Notes: a model not told the origin generated them from the sequence alone. Numbered from the stretch's first letter, positions 55,232-62,715 are shown. The stretch: 64,000 nt of DNA from Iodidimonas sp. SYSU 1G8 (GCF_039655775.1 NZ_JBBYXJ010000002.1:806001-870000); one strand, 5' to 3'. Numbers and translations are program-made.

Positions 55232-56523
55232 CCGCAACCTTGCCCCGATTGCCCAACACGGCGCCCGAATGGCAGCGTGACGGGTACCAGAACATCTGGA
55301 TGCCCTATACCCAGATGCAGACCACGCCGCCGCCGATTCCGGTGACGAAGACCGATGGCGTGCGCATCACGCTGGCCGATGGACGCGAGCTGATCGACGG
55401 CACCGCGTCGTGGTGGACGGCGTGCCATGGTTACAATCATCCGCACATCGTCGCCGCCATGCAGAAGCAGGTGGCCGAGATGCCGCATGTCATGTTCGGT
55501 GGCCTGGCGCACGAACCGGCCTTCCGGCTGGCGACACGGCTGGCGGCGCTGACGCCGGGCGACCTGAACCGGGTGTTTTTCGCCGAAGGCGGCTCGGTGG
55601 CCGTCGAGGTCGCCATGAAGATGGCGCTGCAGTACTTCATCAACAAAGGCGAGCCGGGGCGGACCAAGTTCGTCAGCTTCCTGGGCGGCTATCACGGCGA
55701 CACCTTCGCGGCCATGTCGGTCTGCGATCCCAATGACGGCATGCACACCCTGTTCAAGGACGCCATGCCCCGCAACTACGCCATGCCCTTGCCCGAGACG
55801 GCGGCGGCCATGGCCGAATTCCAGGACTTTCTCCGGGAAAATCGCGGGCATGTCGCGGCGGTGATGATCGAGCCGCTGGTGCAGGGCGCGGGCGGCATGA
55901 AGTTCCATGGCGCGGACTTGCTGCAAGGCATTCGCGCCGCCTGCGACGCGTCGGGCGTGCTGCTGATCTTCGACGAGATCTTCACCGGGTTCGGCCGGAC
56001 GGGCGCGCTGTTCGCCGCCGGCGCGGCCGATGTGCTGCCCGACATCATGTGCGTCGGCAAGGCGCTGACCGGCGGCACGACGCCGCTGTCGGCGGCGATC
56101 GCCCGCGAGCATGTGTTCGAGGCGTTCCTGAGCGACGATCCGCAGGCCGCGCTGATGCATGGGCCGACCTTCATGGCCAATCCGCTGGCGTGCGCGGCGG
56201 CCAACGCGGCGCTCGACCTGTTCGAGGAGGAGCCGTGGGCTGAGAGCGTGGCGCGGATCGAAGCGCAGATGCGGCGGGAGTTGGAGCCATGCCGGGCGCT
56301 GCCCGGCGTGATCGATGTAAGGGTGATGGGCGCCATCGCGGCGATCCAGCTCGATGATCTGAGCGACAAGGAAATCCTGAAGGCCCGTTTCATGGAGGCA
56401 GGGGTGTGGCTGCGTCCCTTCGCCGACATCGTCTACCTGACGCCGCCCTTCATCATCGGCGAGGATGATCTTCGCCGGTTGACCTCGGCCATTGTCGCGG
56501 TACTCTCGGGGCGGGGCTACTAG
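55228..56523 (+). CDS. bioA: Adenosylmethionine-8-amino-7-oxononanoate aminotransferase BioA
   Basis: A 431-residue class III aminotransferase with '[17 protein letters not shown]', '[18 protein letters not shown]', '[17 protein letters not shown]' and the PLP Lys in 'CVGKALTGG'. The N-terminal 'WMPYTQM' is specific for BioA. It makes diaminopelargonate using SAM as amino donor. bioB-bioA form the plus-strand half of the biotin locus. bioC and bioH/bioZ are not seen here. Confidence 0.94.
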
Positions 56524-56593
56524 GGCGCCGGAAAACCCTTTTCCGTTGCGCCCTCGAACCAATATAAATTGCGCAGTACCGGAAGGCGCCCCG

Positions 56594-58582
56594 ATGGACA
56601 TTCACGCCGACACTCAGCCCAGTCTCGAGGGGCATCTGCCCGCCGACCTGATCGATCGCGCCAAGGCGGTGGCGGCGGCGCCCGTCAGTCTCGTGACCGG
56701 CGTGGATGTCGCGCTGGTGACGGGAGAAGGCGGCGACGCGGCCGGCGTGAACGATTTCGTCATCCGCGCGGCGGACCTGTTCGACCGGCAGATCGGCACA
56801 CGGCACGGCGCCGCACGGGTCGCGGCGCTGCGGGCGGAGCTGGCCCGCCGCGGCATCGACGGCTTCGTCGTGCCCATGGCGGACGAGTACCAGAACGAAT
56901 TCGTGCCGCGCCATGCGCAGCGCCTGGCCTGGCTGAGCGGCTTCCTGGGTTCGGCCGGGACCATCATCGTGCTGCGCGACAAGGCGGCGATCTTCGTGGA
57001 TGGCCGCTACACGCTGCAGGTCCGCGACCAGGTCGATCTGGCGGTGTTCGAGCCGTGCTCCTATCTGGAGGTCACGGCCTGGCTGGTCGAGAATTTGGGC
57101 GCCGGCCGGACGCTGGGCTACGATCCCTGGCTGCACACGGAAGCCGGTGTCGAGGCTCTCAAGGACGCCTGCGAGAAGGCGGGCGGGCTTCTGCAGCCGC
57201 TGGACAGCAACCCGGTGGACGCTGTGTGGGAGAACCGGCCGCCGCGCCCGCTGGCGCGCATCGTGCCCCATGATCTGCGCTATGCCGGCGAGCCGGCCGC
57301 CGAAAAACGGGCCCGCATGGCCACTTCGGTCAGGAACGCGGGCGCCAGCGCGCTGGCGCTCTCGACGACGGATTCCATCGCCTGGCTGCTGAATATCCGG
57401 GGCGCGGACGTGTCGCGCACGCCGCTGGCGCTGGCCTACGCGCTGCTGCATGAGGATGCGTCGGTCGATCTGTTCGTCGACGAGCGCAAGGTGGATGGCG
57501 CGCTGCGCGGGCATCTCGGCAATCAGGTCCGGGTCGAGCCGGAAGAGGCGCTGGCCGGCGCTCTGGCCGCGCTGGGCGGTGCCGGCAAGACGGTGATGAT
57601 CGATCCCACATCCGCGCCGGCGTGGTTCGTCGCCCGTCTGACCGAAGGCGGCGCGGGTATCGTGCGCAAGACCAACCCGATCCAGAAGGCCAAGGCGCTC
57701 AAGAACCCGGCGGAGCTCAACGGCACGCGGGCCGCGCACAAGCGCGATGGCGCGGCGCTGGCCAAATTCTTCCGCTGGCTGGCCGAGAACGCCCCGAACG
57801 GCACGGTCGACGAGCTATCCGCCGTGGACCAGTTGCAGGCGTTCCGGCAGGAAGGCGACCTGTTCCGCGACCTGAGCTTCGATACCATCTCGGGCGCCGG
57901 ACCGAATGGCGCCATCGTTCATTACCGGTCCAGCGAAGAGACGAACCGTGTACTCGGTAGGGGAGAGCTCTATCTGGTGGATTCCGGCGGGCAGTATCTC
58001 GACGGCACTACCGACGTGACGCGGACCATCGCCATCGGCACGCCCAGCGCGGAACACCGCGACCGTTTCACCCGTGTGCTGCGCGGGCATATCGCCCTGG
58101 CCATGGCCCGCTTTCCCAAGGGGACCACGGGACACCAGCTCGACGTGCTGGCGCGCATGCCGCTCTGGCAGGCGGGCCTGGATTTCAAGCATGGCACCGG
58201 GCACGGAGTCGGGTCGTATCTGGGCGTGCATGAAGGGCCGCACAGCATCTCGCCGCGGCCGTCCAGCGTGGCGCTCGAGGCCGGGATGATCGTCTCCAAC
58301 GAGCCGGGCTACTATCTGGAAGGCGCCTATGGCATCCGGATGGAGAACCTGGTCGCCGTGGTGCCGGCCGAGCCGGGCGAGGATGACTCGCCCTTCTATG
58401 AATTCGAGACGCTGACACTGGCGCCCATCGACCGGGCGCTGATCGATCCGGCGGCGATGAGCCCGCGGGAGCTGCAGTGGCTCAATGATTATCACGCGCG
58501 GGTGTACCGCGAGGTGGGGCCGCAGCTGGACGACGCCACGCGCGCCTGGCTCGCCGAGGCGACGGCGCCGCTGCACGCTTAG
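56594..58582 (+). CDS. Aminopeptidase P (Xaa-Pro aminopeptidase, M24B) with N-terminal extension
   Basis: ATG 56594 follows GGAAGG by 9 bases and gives 662 residues. From about residue 70 the sequence is typical M24B ('RVAALRAELARRGIDGFVVPMADEYQNEFVP', 'WLSGFLGSAG'). Metal ligands are present: 'LVDSGGQYLDGTTDVTRT' (two Asp), 'HGTGHGVGSYLGVHEGP' (His), 'ISNEPGYY'-type 'VSNEPGYYLEGAYGIRMEN' (two Glu). The first 70 residues are unlike the family and have no signal peptide. It cleaves X-Pro dipeptides in the cytoplasm. Confidence 0.9.
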   Translation: MDIHADTQPSLEGHLPADLIDRAKAVAAAPVSLVTGVDVALVTGEGGDAAGVNDFVIRAADLFDRQIGTRHGAARVAALRAELARRGIDGFVVPMADEYQNEFVPRHAQRLAWLSGFLGSAGTIIVLRDKAAIFVDGRYTLQVRDQVDLAVFEPCSYLEVTAWLVENLGAGRTLGYDPWLHTEAGVEALKDACEKAGGLLQPLDSNPVDAVWENRPPRPLARIVPHDLRYAGEPAAEKRARMATSVRNAGASALALSTTDSIAWLLNIRGADVSRTPLALAYALLHEDASVDLFVDERKVDGALRGHLGNQVRVEPEEALAGALAALGGAGKTVMIDPTSAPAWFVARLTEGGAGIVRKTNPIQKAKALKNPAELNGTRAAHKRDGAALAKFFRWLAENAPNGTVDELSAVDQLQAFRQEGDLFRDLSFDTISGAGPNGAIVHYRSSEETNRVLGRGELYLVDSGGQYLDGTTDVTRTIAIGTPSAEHRDRFTRVLRGHIALAMARFPKGTTGHQLDVLARMPLWQAGLDFKHGTGHGVGSYLGVHEGPHSISPRPSSVALEAGMIVSNEPGYYLEGAYGIRMENLVAVVPAEPGEDDSPFYEFETLTLAPIDRALIDPAAMSPRELQWLNDYHARVYREVGPQLDDATRAWLAEATAPLHA

Positions 58583-59343
58583 TCCAGGGCGCTGGCGCGC
58601 CGCAGCGCGCGCCGTCCTTTCCGGATCAGGACCGCCGCGAGCATGCCGCCGAGGACGATCGCGCCGGCCAGGAACGGCCAGGTCGCGCGGAAGGGCCAGA
58701 GCAGGTCGAGATAGACCGTCATCAGGCCCAGCCAGAAGAACGCCAGACCCCAGAAAGCGATGCCGCCGACGCGCAGCAGCACGCCCAGCTTGCCGATCCA
58801 GAACGCGGCGACGCAGAAGACGATGCGGTAGACGACCGCGAGCGCGGGCCATGGCAGCAACGCGGCCATGGCGATGAGCTGCAGGCTGATCAGGATCACG
58901 AACAGCGCCGCGCCGGTGGCGGCGAATCTGGGCATGGCAACGAACATCTCGTCTTCCTGCGTGCGCTGCGAACGGCGAACGAGCAGGACGCAGCCCAGCA
59001 CCACGATGGCGCCGAACAGGAAACCGAACCAGCGCGCCGCGGCGGGGTAGGCGGTCCACGCCCGCTCGATGGCGTAAGCGTCCGAGGCGATGTAGACCGC
59101 CGCCAGGCCCAGCAGCACCGCATAGCTCTTGCCTGTCCGCGCGAAGAGCCGCGTGGCGCGCCGACCCGCGAGCCGGGCCATCAGTTCGTAAAGAGCGGCG
59201 GCGCCGACCAGATAGACGCCCATCAGGGACAGCAGGTTGGGATATCCCGTGCGCCAGGCCGCGTGGATCGCCAGAGCGAGCAGGGGCGCCAGCAGCACAT
59301 GTGCGGCGACCTGCGGGCCGCTCAGCCGGTTCCGCGATCTCAT
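58579..59343 (-). CDS. Polytopic membrane protein of unknown function
   Basis: ATG 59343 overlaps the stop of the M48-like gene by four bases. The 254-residue protein has about eight hydrophobic helices, a basic cytoplasmic linker 'VRRSQRTQEDEMF' and a basic C-terminus 'IRKGRRALRRASALD'. I do not recognise a family. It is the last gene of the five-gene minus-strand operon, which is otherwise secreted or envelope-directed. Confidence 0.75.
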   Translation of the reverse strand: MRSRNRLSGPQVAAHVLLAPLLALAIHAAWRTGYPNLLSLMGVYLVGAAALYELMARLAGRRATRLFARTGKSYAVLLGLAAVYIASDAYAIERAWTAYPAAARWFGFLFGAIVVLGCVLLVRRSQRTQEDEMFVAMPRFAATGAALFVILISLQLIAMAALLPWPALAVVYRIVFCVAAFWIGKLGVLLRVGGIAFWGLAFFWLGLMTVYLDLLWPFRATWPFLAGAIVLGGMLAAVLIRKGRRALRRASALD

Positions 59344-60254
59344 GGCGTGCCGCCCTCCGGCGTCGGCCGATAGTGGCGCCGGGTCGGGAACGCCAGTTTC
59401 AGTGAATCGAAGCCGGGATTGGCGGGCCATTCACCAGTGCCGGACGCGCTGGCGCGCAAGGCGGACACCCGCGCGTCGGTCTGGTCATGTCCGAGAAACA
59501 GGCAGGTGGTCCGCCGCGCCTGCGCCGGCGCGAGGGACGCGACCGAGACGAAGATCGACGCGCCGCGCGCGACATCGTGCCCCGTCACGGCGAACAGACG
59601 GGCGATCGCGGCGTCGGCGTCGGCCTCCCGTTGCGGGCCGTAGCCAGCGCGCACCGTGTCGAACACCGCCGACTCCAGGGCGCGGGCGATGACGGGGTCG
59701 AGCGGGCTGGCGCCGGACTCGCCGTCGAGGCGCGAGAGGATCGCCGCGACCTCGCGCGGGCCGAGCCGCTCGGCGAAGGCCGGCTCCCGCATCATCTGGT
59801 CGAGGTGACCGTTTTCGGCGTGTCCCATGCAGTGCGCCACGACGGCGGCCAGTTCATCGGCGGTGTCGATATAGCGTATCAGGCCCTTGTAGAGCGCGAG
59901 CCGTCCGCCGGGGAGAATCCACGCGCCGGGCATGTCGTTGTCGATGACCGTCGCCTTCCAGGGCAGCGATGGCCGCGCCGAGGCGGCGAAGAAGGGCTGC
60001 ACGAACTCGGTGATGGCGGTCTGGACGAAATTGTTTGGATAGGCGCCGCCGGCCCGGGCGAAGAGGGAACGCTCAAGCTGTTCGCCGAAGGCTGCCTGGT
60101 CATGAAAGGACATATCGGGCCGCCGGAGCAGCCAGTCGTGGACACGGGCTCTTGCGCTCGCGGTCTCGGCGCGAAGGCCGCCGCTCGCCAGCAGCAGGCC
60201 GACGCAGGCCGCGCCCGTCATCACGCCGCGCCGCGTCGGACAGGCGAGGGTCAT
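59340..60254 (-). CDS. M48-like metalloprotease homologue lacking the catalytic glutamate
   Basis: This 304-residue protein has a signal peptide (about residues 11-29) and an M48-type body: 'DNDMPGAWILPGGRLALYKGLIRYIDTADELAAVVAH', then a motif that should read HEMGH but is 'HCMGH' (His141, Cys142, His145), then 'GPQREADADAAIARLFAVTGHD', which supplies the third zinc ligand. The two His and the distal Glu remain, but the general-base Glu is Cys. It may still bind metal but is unlikely to hydrolyse peptides. It overlaps both neighbours by four bases. Other M48-like proteins assemble or inspect the outer membrane. Confidence 0.82.
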   Translation of the reverse strand: MTLACPTRRGVMTGAACVGLLLASGGLRAETASARARVHDWLLRRPDMSFHDQAAFGEQLERSLFARAGGAYPNNFVQTAITEFVQPFFAASARPSLPWKATVIDNDMPGAWILPGGRLALYKGLIRYIDTADELAAVVAHCMGHAENGHLDQMMREPAFAERLGPREVAAILSRLDGESGASPLDPVIARALESAVFDTVRAGYGPQREADADAAIARLFAVTGHDVARGASIFVSVASLAPAQARRTTCLFLGHDQTDARVSALRASASGTGEWPANPGFDSLKLAFPTRRHYRPTPEGGTP

Positions 60255-61042
60255 GGCGATCCGTCTCCGGCGGCGTGGAGCAGCACCAGGCCGTTGATCG
60301 GCGCGTTGGAATAGGTCAGGTCGGGGTCGAACGAGAAGACGGCTTCATAGATGGCGCCGTTATCGGGCACGGCGCGGATCAGATAAGGCCGCCCCTGCTG
60401 CAAGGGCGGCGCATCCTCGGGATAGCGCGCCGCGCCGCTGTAGATCTTCGCGGCCCAGACTTCGCGGGGCTCGGCATCGTCCAGCTCCGTCAGGCTCAAC
60501 CGGGCGGCATCCCCGAGGCCGGCGGGCCAGCGGAACACGGGCTCGGCCGCGTTGACGGCGGTTTCCGCCCAGAGCGTCCGGTCGAACGGGCCTTCATCCG
60601 CGACGCTGCTGACCGGCGCGTCCGGCAGCAACTGGGGGAGCGGCCGGCATGACAGGGCGCGGCTGCGGACGCTCGATCCACGCCCGGCCTGCGGGCCCGA
60701 CGGCATGACGCGCAGAACGCCGCCGGCGATGGTCTCCTCGCGGCAGGGCGTCAGGTAGGTCAGGGTGATTTCCCCCTGGCCGCCCAGATCGATCGTCTGC
60801 CCGGCACTGACGTAGCTGTAGAGGATGGCCGAGGGGTCGACAACGCCGCGCAGGCCGCTGATCCAGGCCACGGGGCCGTCCGAGGTCACGGTCTCGGCGG
60901 CCGGCGGTGGCGGGAGCTGTCGGAGGGACTCGCTTTCCCCGGCGAACAGGCCCAGCAAGCCCCGCGAGGACGCCGCCGTCGCGGGAAGCAGGAGAAGGGC
61001 CGCCGCCAGCAGAACGTACAGACCCTGCGACCGACGTTTCAT
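60251..61042 (-). CDS. Secreted protein of unknown function, FecR-like pattern
   Basis: A 263-residue protein with a signal peptide (residues 5-24). Residues about 55-115 ('VDPSAILYSYVSAGQTIDLGGQGEITLTYLTPCREETIAGG') have the glycine-rich alternation seen in FecR-like periplasmic domains. The rest is unassigned, with a Cys pair ('TPCREE' and 'LSCRPL') that may form a disulfide. It lies 4 bases into the M48-like gene and 15 bases after a small secreted protein gene. The function is unknown. Confidence 0.7.
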   Translation of the reverse strand: MKRRSQGLYVLLAAALLLLPATAASSRGLLGLFAGESESLRQLPPPPAAETVTSDGPVAWISGLRGVVDPSAILYSYVSAGQTIDLGGQGEITLTYLTPCREETIAGGVLRVMPSGPQAGRGSSVRSRALSCRPLPQLLPDAPVSSVADEGPFDRTLWAETAVNAAEPVFRWPAGLGDAARLSLTELDDAEPREVWAAKIYSGAARYPEDAPPLQQGRPYLIRAVPDNGAIYEAVFSFDPDLTYSNAPINGLVLLHAAGDGSP

Positions 61043-61057
61043 GCCTCGGTTCCGGCG

Positions 61058-61318
61058 CTAAGGCCGCGTGATGAGAACGGAGTGGTACGGGGTGCCCAGC
61101 ACCATGGGATCGTCGGTCCTGTAGCAGTCCGCGCGCATGGATTCCCCCTCCGCGAAGCCCTTCCGGACATCCGCGCCAAAGCCCTCGTCCTCGATCAGCC
61201 TCTCGCAGGCCAGCGTGGCCGGAATTTTCGCCTCACGCTGGAACGCGGTGTAGTCGCTCACGGTGTAGCTGACCAGATCACCATGCAGCAGGTAGAAGAA
61301 CGCGATCACGATTTTCAT
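61058..61318 (-). CDS. Small protein of unknown function with hydrophobic start
   Basis: An 86-residue product from ATG 61318 with GAGG upstream. It has a hydrophobic start 'IVIAFFYLLHG' that may be a short signal or anchor, then a soluble region with two Cys ('LACERLIEDEG' and 'RADCYRTDD') that could form a disulfide. No family is recognised. Gene spacing puts it in the operon with the FecR-like, M48-like and membrane proteins. Confidence 0.6.
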   Translation of the reverse strand: MKIVIAFFYLLHGDLVSYTVSDYTAFQREAKIPATLACERLIEDEGFGADVRKGFAEGESMRADCYRTDDPMVLGTPYHSVLITRP

Positions 61319-61366
61319 TGGCGCCTCATTATGCCGCCATGGCGGCGCGCTGGCCAGACGCCAGCA

Positions 61367-61531
61367 TCAGGTCGCGTTGGCGGCGACGCGGCGTCCCGGA
61401 AGTTGCGCCAGCACCGCCCGCTTCTCGTCGTCGGAATAGCTCGACCAGCCGCCGATTTCGCGAATGGTGCGAAAGCAGCCGATACAATGACGGTCGCCGA
61501 TCCGGCACACGCCGATACAAGGGGATTCCAT
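61367..61531 (-). CDS. DUF1289 small cysteine-motif protein
   Basis: ATG 61531 with AGGATCG upstream gives 54 residues; a GTG at 61552 would add seven. The sequence 'MESPCIGVCRIGDRHCIGCFRTIREIGGWSSYSDDEKRAVLAQL' is the DUF1289 pattern, with four Cys (CxxxC and CxxC) that may bind iron or zinc. The function is unknown. It is the first gene of the minus-strand operon, 48 bases before the next. Confidence 0.85.
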   Translation of the reverse strand: MESPCIGVCRIGDRHCIGCFRTIREIGGWSSYSDDEKRAVLAQLPGRRVAANAT

Positions 61532-61741: not shown

Positions 61742-62044
61742 ATGCGGTGGATGATCATGACAGTGGCGGTCGTAATGCTCTCGGGCGCGGCGCAAGCCCA
61801 TGCCTTCAGTGAGCAGGACAGTGCGCGCGACGCCTATCAGCGCGGCGAGATCATGTCGCTGGCGGACATTCGCCGCAATGTGCAGCGCGATTTCAACGGC
61901 CAGATCATCGGCACGCAATTCAGGTCGTCCGACAGTCGCGGATACGTCTACAAGTTTCGCGTGCTGTCGCCCGATGGCACCATGATGAGCATCGATGTGG
62001 ACGCCCGGACATCGAAAGTCATCGGCGTAAAGGGGCAACGATAA
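61742..62044 (+). CDS. PepSY-domain periplasmic protein
   Basis: A 100-residue protein with a signal peptide (residues 1-21, AQA-H) and a PepSY-type domain ('ISLADIRRNVQRDF'-like opening, 'GYVYKFRVLSPDGTMMSIDVDARTSKVIGVKGQ'). PepSY proteins often accompany a two-component pair and may tune its sensor. The stop overlaps the regulator start by one base, so the three form an operon. Confidence 0.85.
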   Translation: MRWMIMTVAVVMLSGAAQAHAFSEQDSARDAYQRGEIMSLADIRRNVQRDFNGQIIGTQFRSSDSRGYVYKFRVLSPDGTMMSIDVDARTSKVIGVKGQR

Positions 62045-62715
62045 TGCGCGCGCTCGTGGTCGAGGACGATCCGGATCTGATCCGCCAGCTTTCCGCGACG
62101 CTGCGGGATGAAGGCTATGCCGTCGATGAAGCGACGGATGGCGAGGAAGCGACATATCTGGGCGATGTGGAGCCTTATGACATCGTCGTTCTCGATCTCG
62201 GGCTGCCGGTCATCGACGGCGTATCGGTCCTCAAGTCGTGGCGGGCCAAGGGCCGCACCATGCCAGTGCTGATCCTGACCGCGCGCGGGCAGTGGAGCGA
62301 GAAGGTGGCGGGTTTCGATGCCGGCGCCGACGACTATCTGACCAAGCCGTTCCAGATGGAGGAGCTGCTGGCGCGCATCCGGGCGCTGATCCGCCGGGCT
62401 GCCGGCCACGCCTCGCCGGTCATGCGATGCGGCCCGGTCGAGGTCGACACCAACAGCGCGACGGTCCTCGTGAATGGCGAGTCCATCAAGCTGACCGGCC
62501 ATGAATACAAGCTGCTGTCCTATCTGATCCACCACATGAACAAGATCGTCTCCCGCACCGAGCTGACGGAACATATCTACGATCAGGACTTCGACCGTGA
62601 TTCCAACACGATCGAGGTCTTCGTCGGCCGGCTGCGCAAGAAGCTGGGCGTGGACGTGATCAAGACCGTGCGGGGTTTGGGCTACCGCATGGAGCCGGAT
62701 GGTGAGGCGGCCTAG
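62044..62715 (+). CDS. OmpR/PhoP-type response regulator
   Basis: A 223-residue regulator. The receiver has acid residues in 'LVVEDDPDL', phospho-acceptor Asp in 'IVVLDLGLPV', Thr in 'LILTARG' and Lys in 'YLTKPF'. The winged-helix DNA-binding domain covers about residues 130-220 ('LTGHEYKLLSYLIHHMNKIVSRTELTEHIYD', 'VFVGRLRKKLG', 'TVRGLGYRM'). It pairs with the kinase whose GTG start lies inside its 3' end. PhoP- or QseB-like roles (envelope, cation or polymyxin response) are common in this family. Confidence 0.94.
   Translation: MRALVVEDDPDLIRQLSATLRDEGYAVDEATDGEEATYLGDVEPYDIVVLDLGLPVIDGVSVLKSWRAKGRTMPVLILTARGQWSEKVAGFDAGADDYLTKPFQMEELLARIRALIRRAAGHASPVMRCGPVEVDTNSATVLVNGESIKLTGHEYKLLSYLIHHMNKIVSRTELTEHIYDQDFDRDSNTIEVFVGRLRKKLGVDVIKTVRGLGYRMEPDGEAA

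Follow-up and report, generated by a model that had tools for sequence, protein, structure and literature searches.

The window, i.e. the whole stretch of 64,000 nucleotides analysed here, carries five genes on its minus strand between positions 58579 and 61531. They encode a DUF1289 protein, an 86-aa protein, an exported beta protein, an M48-like protein and a membrane protein with eight transmembrane (TM) segments. The genes and the sites of the M48-like protein are the following:

61367..61531, minus strand: DUF1289 protein of 54 aa (PF06945, 73.1 bits)
61058..61318, minus strand: 86-aa protein with two conserved cysteines, C38 and C65 (alignment of relatives)
60251..61042, minus strand: exported two-domain beta protein with an N-terminal hydrophobic segment (AlphaFold2 pLDDT 82)
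59340..60254, minus strand: M48-like protein of 304 aa with a twin-arginine-like N-terminus and the site HCMGH (PF01435; AlphaFold2 pLDDT 90)
59820..59834, minus strand: H141-C142-M-G-H145, zinc histidines retained and catalytic Glu replaced by Cys (sequence; C142 codon TGC at 59829-59831)
59625..59627, minus strand: E210, the third zinc ligand (ExxAD), retained (alignment)
59502..59504, minus strand: C251, Ser in 37 intact relatives and Cys in 5/5 Glu-less proteins (alignment)
59469..59489, minus strand: active-site plug HDQTDAR (H256 to R262), i.e. HPx4R with Pro changed to Asp and with His and Arg retained (alignment)
58579..59343, minus strand: multi-pass membrane protein of 254 aa with about eight TM segments (hydropathy)

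The junctions beta protein/M48 and M48/membrane protein are 4-bp ATGA overlaps, and the other two are gaps of 48 and 15 bp. This gene order with its overlaps and short gaps had been described in the earlier note and was reproduced when the coordinates were re-read from the sequence. The start of the membrane protein is most likely 59343 and not 59430, where a longer open reading frame (ORF) begins, and its comparison with Pfam, NCBIfam and the PDB gave no match worth naming. The GC3 of the M48 gene (0.86) is similar to that of the adjacent operon genes. Downstream, a gene for an M24 Xaa-Pro aminopeptidase-like protein (56492-58582, plus strand) faces the operon in convergent orientation and shares 4 bp with the last operon gene; this neighbour is also present in the loci L031 and L032. 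Upstream of the operon, the genes for a secreted protein of 100 aa and a response regulator of the PhoP type are oriented divergently (61742-62715 and beyond, plus strand) and hold this position in L031 and L032 as well; the response regulator is a possible candidate for a regulator of the operon. The DUF1289 gene occupies the equivalent position in L031, L032 and L069-L071.

The M48-like protein reaches 53.4 bits against PF01435 (cut-off 20.3), and its predicted M48 fold is confident. The model matches 3c37 (Z 21.6, rmsd 3.1, 216 residues aligned) and BepA 6ait (Z 21.4). Against the BepA equivalog NF052400 the score is only 30.2 bits (cut-off 570), and the 304 aa comprise an M48 domain alone. 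The N-terminus (TRRGVMTG...) resembles a twin-arginine signal with 13.4 bits in NCBIfam, which is under the cut-off of 16.7; most of the intact M48 relatives begin with RR-type signals, and export of the window protein is predicted from its sequence. The HxxxH codons are CAC TGC ATG GGA CAC, so that HCMGH stands in place of HExxH, and the TGC of C142 is three base changes away from either Glu codon. H141, H145 and E210 as well as D214 are retained, in agreement with the earlier note, which had claimed a loss of the catalytic Glu with both zinc histidines and the distal Glu kept. Like BepA/YfgC and Geobacter Q74D82 (PDB 6ait, 6sar, 3c37), the window M48 thus has the fold (Z 21 over 207-216 residues), the zinc ligands H, H and E, the plug position and, by prediction, export. 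Unlike them, it lacks the C-terminal TPR domain and the catalytic Glu, and the Pro of its plug is altered. The family motif of the plug is HPx4R (PMC7950410); in BepA the plug occupies the substrate site, and its His, H246, supplies the fourth ligand of the zinc and acts as an on/off switch (PMC7950410; PMC8423444). BepA has a chaperone-like role in addition to proteolysis (PMC8423444). Furthermore, the window M48 differs from a BAM-linked protease in that its operon partners include a beta protein and an 8-TM protein.

The exported beta protein had been called FecR-like, a label which neither Pfam nor profile comparison supports. The FecR profile PF04773 matches neither the window protein nor its relatives, and in the window genome it hits another locus only. 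Comparison with the FecR domains of related genomes by hhalign gave a probability of 0.5%, and a FecR identity was rejected at the sequence level on these two grounds. The AlphaFold2 model consists of two confident beta domains. A fold search returned generic Ig/FnIII-like matches for the C-terminal domain only (Z up to 6.6), while the N-terminal domain was barely tested. C100 and C132 are invariant across 17 relatives.

The operon was compared within the window's order (10 genomes) and in the wider class (385 genomes). It is present with M48 in G006 and G007 and without M48 in three congeners, G001, G003 and G005, from which the gene is cleanly absent. In G001 and G003 the stop of the beta protein and the start of the membrane protein share 4 bp, exactly the overlap that the M48 genes show elsewhere. 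In G004 the beta protein and the membrane protein are on separate contigs, and neither of the two was found in G002, G008 and G009. The 86-aa protein occurs in 5 of the 385 class genomes, all in the window's family, to which the membrane protein is also confined. The new envelope gene set proposed in the earlier note does recur, but it is restricted to one family, and M48 is dispensable to it since G001, G003 and G005 keep the operon without the gene. Within the family, the M48 site reads HCMGH in the window, HAAGH in G006 and HEMAH, with a broken plug, in G007. Between the window and G006 the identity is 52% for M48, 55% for the beta protein, 58% for the 86-aa protein and 60% for the membrane protein, M48 having drifted not much faster than its operon partners.

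A query of genome contigs with the single M48 protein gave no match, and relatives were obtained with an alignment as query. The wider module was found from a search with the beta protein, then from named genomes and the Inquilinus group. At the loci of other families the beta-protein gene adjoins the gene of a protein of about 700 aa with CHASE2 and class III cyclase domains, which is followed by M48. This adenylate/guanylate cyclase module, to which the beta protein and an intact M48 belong elsewhere, had been overlooked in the earlier note, and one of the partners named there is not detectably a FecR protein. Both HExxH and HPx4R are present in the M48s of all 24 distinct beta protein–CHASE2 cyclase–M48 loci. 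A beta protein and an M48 without a cyclase were found at seven loci, namely the window, G006, G007, G044, G156, L120/G398 and L111. Six of these have broken sites, and the same inactivation as in the window thereby appears in two other families, at loci likewise without cyclase (HALAH in G044, HQMGH in G156 and L120/G398); the exception is L111 with an intact HEIGH. For 20 cyclase loci versus the seven cyclase-less loci the Fisher p is 2.4e-5, uncorrected for kinship. The window locus joins a beta protein to an M48 from the same clade, with no CHASE2 cyclase between the two, and no CHASE2 domain was found anywhere in its genome (G000, 100% complete) or in G001, G005, G006 and G007. G044 and G156 possess other CHASE2 genes elsewhere in the genome. 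Both arrangements exist in family f16, where the genus g278 (Inquilinus and relatives) has the cyclase and an intact M48, and G156/G398 have no cyclase at the locus and the site HQMGH.

The M48 of L120 (JANQQD010000125.1, the same contig as G398) and that of G156 share 90% identity and the same gene neighbours. The record is titled Anaerolineae (Chloroflexota), but in view of this similarity and of its assignment to the alphaproteobacterial family f16 in the genome collection the title looks wrong. At L111 the beta protein and M48 are followed by an exported DUF1194/VWA-looking protein. Three loci of family f42 (L078, L083 and L084 in G050, G272 and G176) comprise a beta protein and a CHASE2 cyclase with no nearby M48.

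With 37 intact rows as alignment reference, 38 columns are near-invariant, and 87% of them are retained in the window M48. H141, H145, E210, A213, D214 and R262 are kept in 6/6 degenerate proteins, across long branches. In the order window, G006, G007, G156, L120 and G044, the residues are C, A, E, Q, Q and A at Glu142, H, R, R, A, A and A at the plug His256, and D, D, A, V, A and A at the plug Pro257; Glu142 is thus lost in 5/6 and the plug Pro in 6/6. At the start of the plug, Ser251 has become Cys in exactly the five Glu-less proteins and is still Ser in G007, which keeps the Glu. It is the sole near-invariant column in which these five agree on a new residue, and the mature domain of G006, G156, L120 and G044 contains no Cys other than Cys251.

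On balance we incline to the view that the window M48 is a non-hydrolytic, probably zinc-holding scaffold whose ancestor was the protease in an envelope module with a CHASE2 cyclase. This module would have had three genes, those of an exported beta protein, a CHASE2-class III cyclase receptor and a periplasmic Tat-type M48 protease. The cyclase would have been lost in the window's family, and the beta protein and M48 would then have been grouped with the 8-TM protein, the 86-aa protein and DUF1289. Released from its role with the cyclase, M48 may have lost the catalytic Glu and the plug. The present-day protein would most likely bind the beta protein or its substrate in a zinc-stabilised cleft but not cut it; the gene order suggests the beta protein as a partner. 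Zinc occupancy, lack of activity, the binding role and the direction of change are predictions from sequence comparison. Several findings count against this explanation: M48 is dispensable in the three congeners, L111 has no cyclase at the locus and an intact M48, G007 is without cyclase yet keeps the Glu, and G044 and G156 carry CHASE2 elsewhere.

A serious rival, because sister species are without the gene, is decay, although we consider it rather less than probable. M48 would then be a relic that became useless after the loss of the cyclase, with its active site gone, no selected function now and the gene already deleted in sister species. The series within the family, from G007 (Glu kept, plug lost) over HAAGH and HCMGH to absence in G001, G003 and G005, would fit such a course, with the operon coupling retained throughout, and the beta-protein tree nests the window beside species that have no M48 gene. 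However, the 304-aa ORF is intact with most of its near-invariant columns. Moreover, a neutral relic should lose metal ligands as readily as the Glu, but all ligands are retained in every degenerate lineage, and the divergence of M48 is not much above that of the operon partners. Conserved ligands and a divergence of ordinary size speak against decay alone.

A special form of the scaffold explanation is that the metal site has been re-used, with Cys251 replacing the plug His as fourth ligand (H-H-E-C) in a permanently closed, zinc-stabilised binding protein. The other four Cys251 proteins have R, A, A and A in place of the plug His, the Ser/Cys distribution at this column follows the presence of the Glu, and the plug His that would be replaced is itself a zinc ligand in BepA (PMC7950410). 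But the window M48 has the plug His as well as Cys251, and if the Glu-less proteins share an ancestor the Cys is possibly one event; we regard this form as unlikely. Very improbable is a site that is still catalytic with altered chemistry, Cys142 or Cys251 acting as general base or nucleophile. Cys251 is available for this in all Glu-less proteins, four of which have no other Cys in the mature domain. However, the relatives have A or Q at position 142 and hence no base in common there, and an M48 that works in the absence of its catalytic Glu is not known to us. Furthermore, the Glu to Gln exchange at the equivalent site, E137Q, renders E. coli BepA protease-dead (PMC7950410). A sequencing error or lone mutation, finally, can be dismissed with near certainty, since E to C takes three base changes and the Glu is also absent from the nearest orthologue (HAAGH) and from other families (HQMGH, HALAH).

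Many protease families include non-peptidase homologues (PMC8621943), and the loss of the Glu alone is therefore not novel. The pseudoproteases CspC, iRhoms and MamO retained the protease fold and lost a catalytic residue, and in MamO the fold is re-used for transition-metal binding (PMC6636752; PMC3149277; PMC4794232). The window M48 resembles them in keeping the fold without a catalytic residue; unlike them, it does not belong to their protease families and it keeps the original ligands of the catalytic metal. FecR and CHASE2 are associated in S. meliloti, where the FecR-domain protein SMc02177 is encoded near CyaD1 (SMc02176) (PMC5498481), and in Burkholderia, where BiofilmReg is a FecR-CHASE2 histidine kinase operon (PMC5192318). 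The parent module likewise pairs an exported protein with a CHASE2 receptor. In contrast to these operons, its beta protein is not detectably FecR and an M48 is added, and the window operon has no CHASE2 receptor. No paper on CHASE2 and M48 together was found in the literature searched, in which the module, the association between cyclase and site and the Ser-to-Cys change appear to be novel. An alphaproteobacterial clade of M48 proteases is thereby linked to CHASE2 receptor cyclases. What CHASE2 domains recognise was stated to be unknown (PMC5192318); a dedicated periplasmic protease and an exported beta protein are concrete leads on this recognition. In addition, intact protease, plug-less protease, Glu-less protein and absence of the gene form a natural series, partly within one family and operon, in which the role of a non-cutting M48 can be asked.

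The number of independent losses of the cyclase is small and uncertain. In the M48 tree the degenerate proteins are on one side of a branch (93/96), but these proteins sit on long branches, and when the active-site columns are masked the program warns that long branches meet. In the masked tree G044 pairs weakly with the intact G403 of the same family, and a position of G156/L120 beside Inquilinus, which belongs to the same family as they do, is not rejected (AU p 0.27). In the beta-protein tree the presence of the cyclase has to change four times, G156/L120 group with Inquilinus (95/95), and one clade of all cyclase-less loci is disfavoured (AU p 0.042). A single origin of the degenerate M48s is thus backed by one M48 tree, a support that masking weakens, and is disfavoured by the beta-protein tree. 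We lean towards three independent losses with degeneration (the window's family, G156/L120 and G044) plus L111 without; at so few losses significance is out of reach of an independent-pairs test. It is a tentative and rather doubtful extension that loss of the cyclase repeatedly and convergently turns the M48 protease associated with it into a metal site that carries a Cys and does not cut (H-H-E plus C251). If true, such a switch from protease to zinc scaffold would show that the M48 protease does work within a module for cAMP signalling at the envelope.

Magnetospirillum-type M48s of the same clade are present at L103, L107, L109, L112, L113, L115-L119, L121 and L123. No beta protein or CHASE2 cyclase was found near them; all of them are intact, and some adjoin a second M48 gene.
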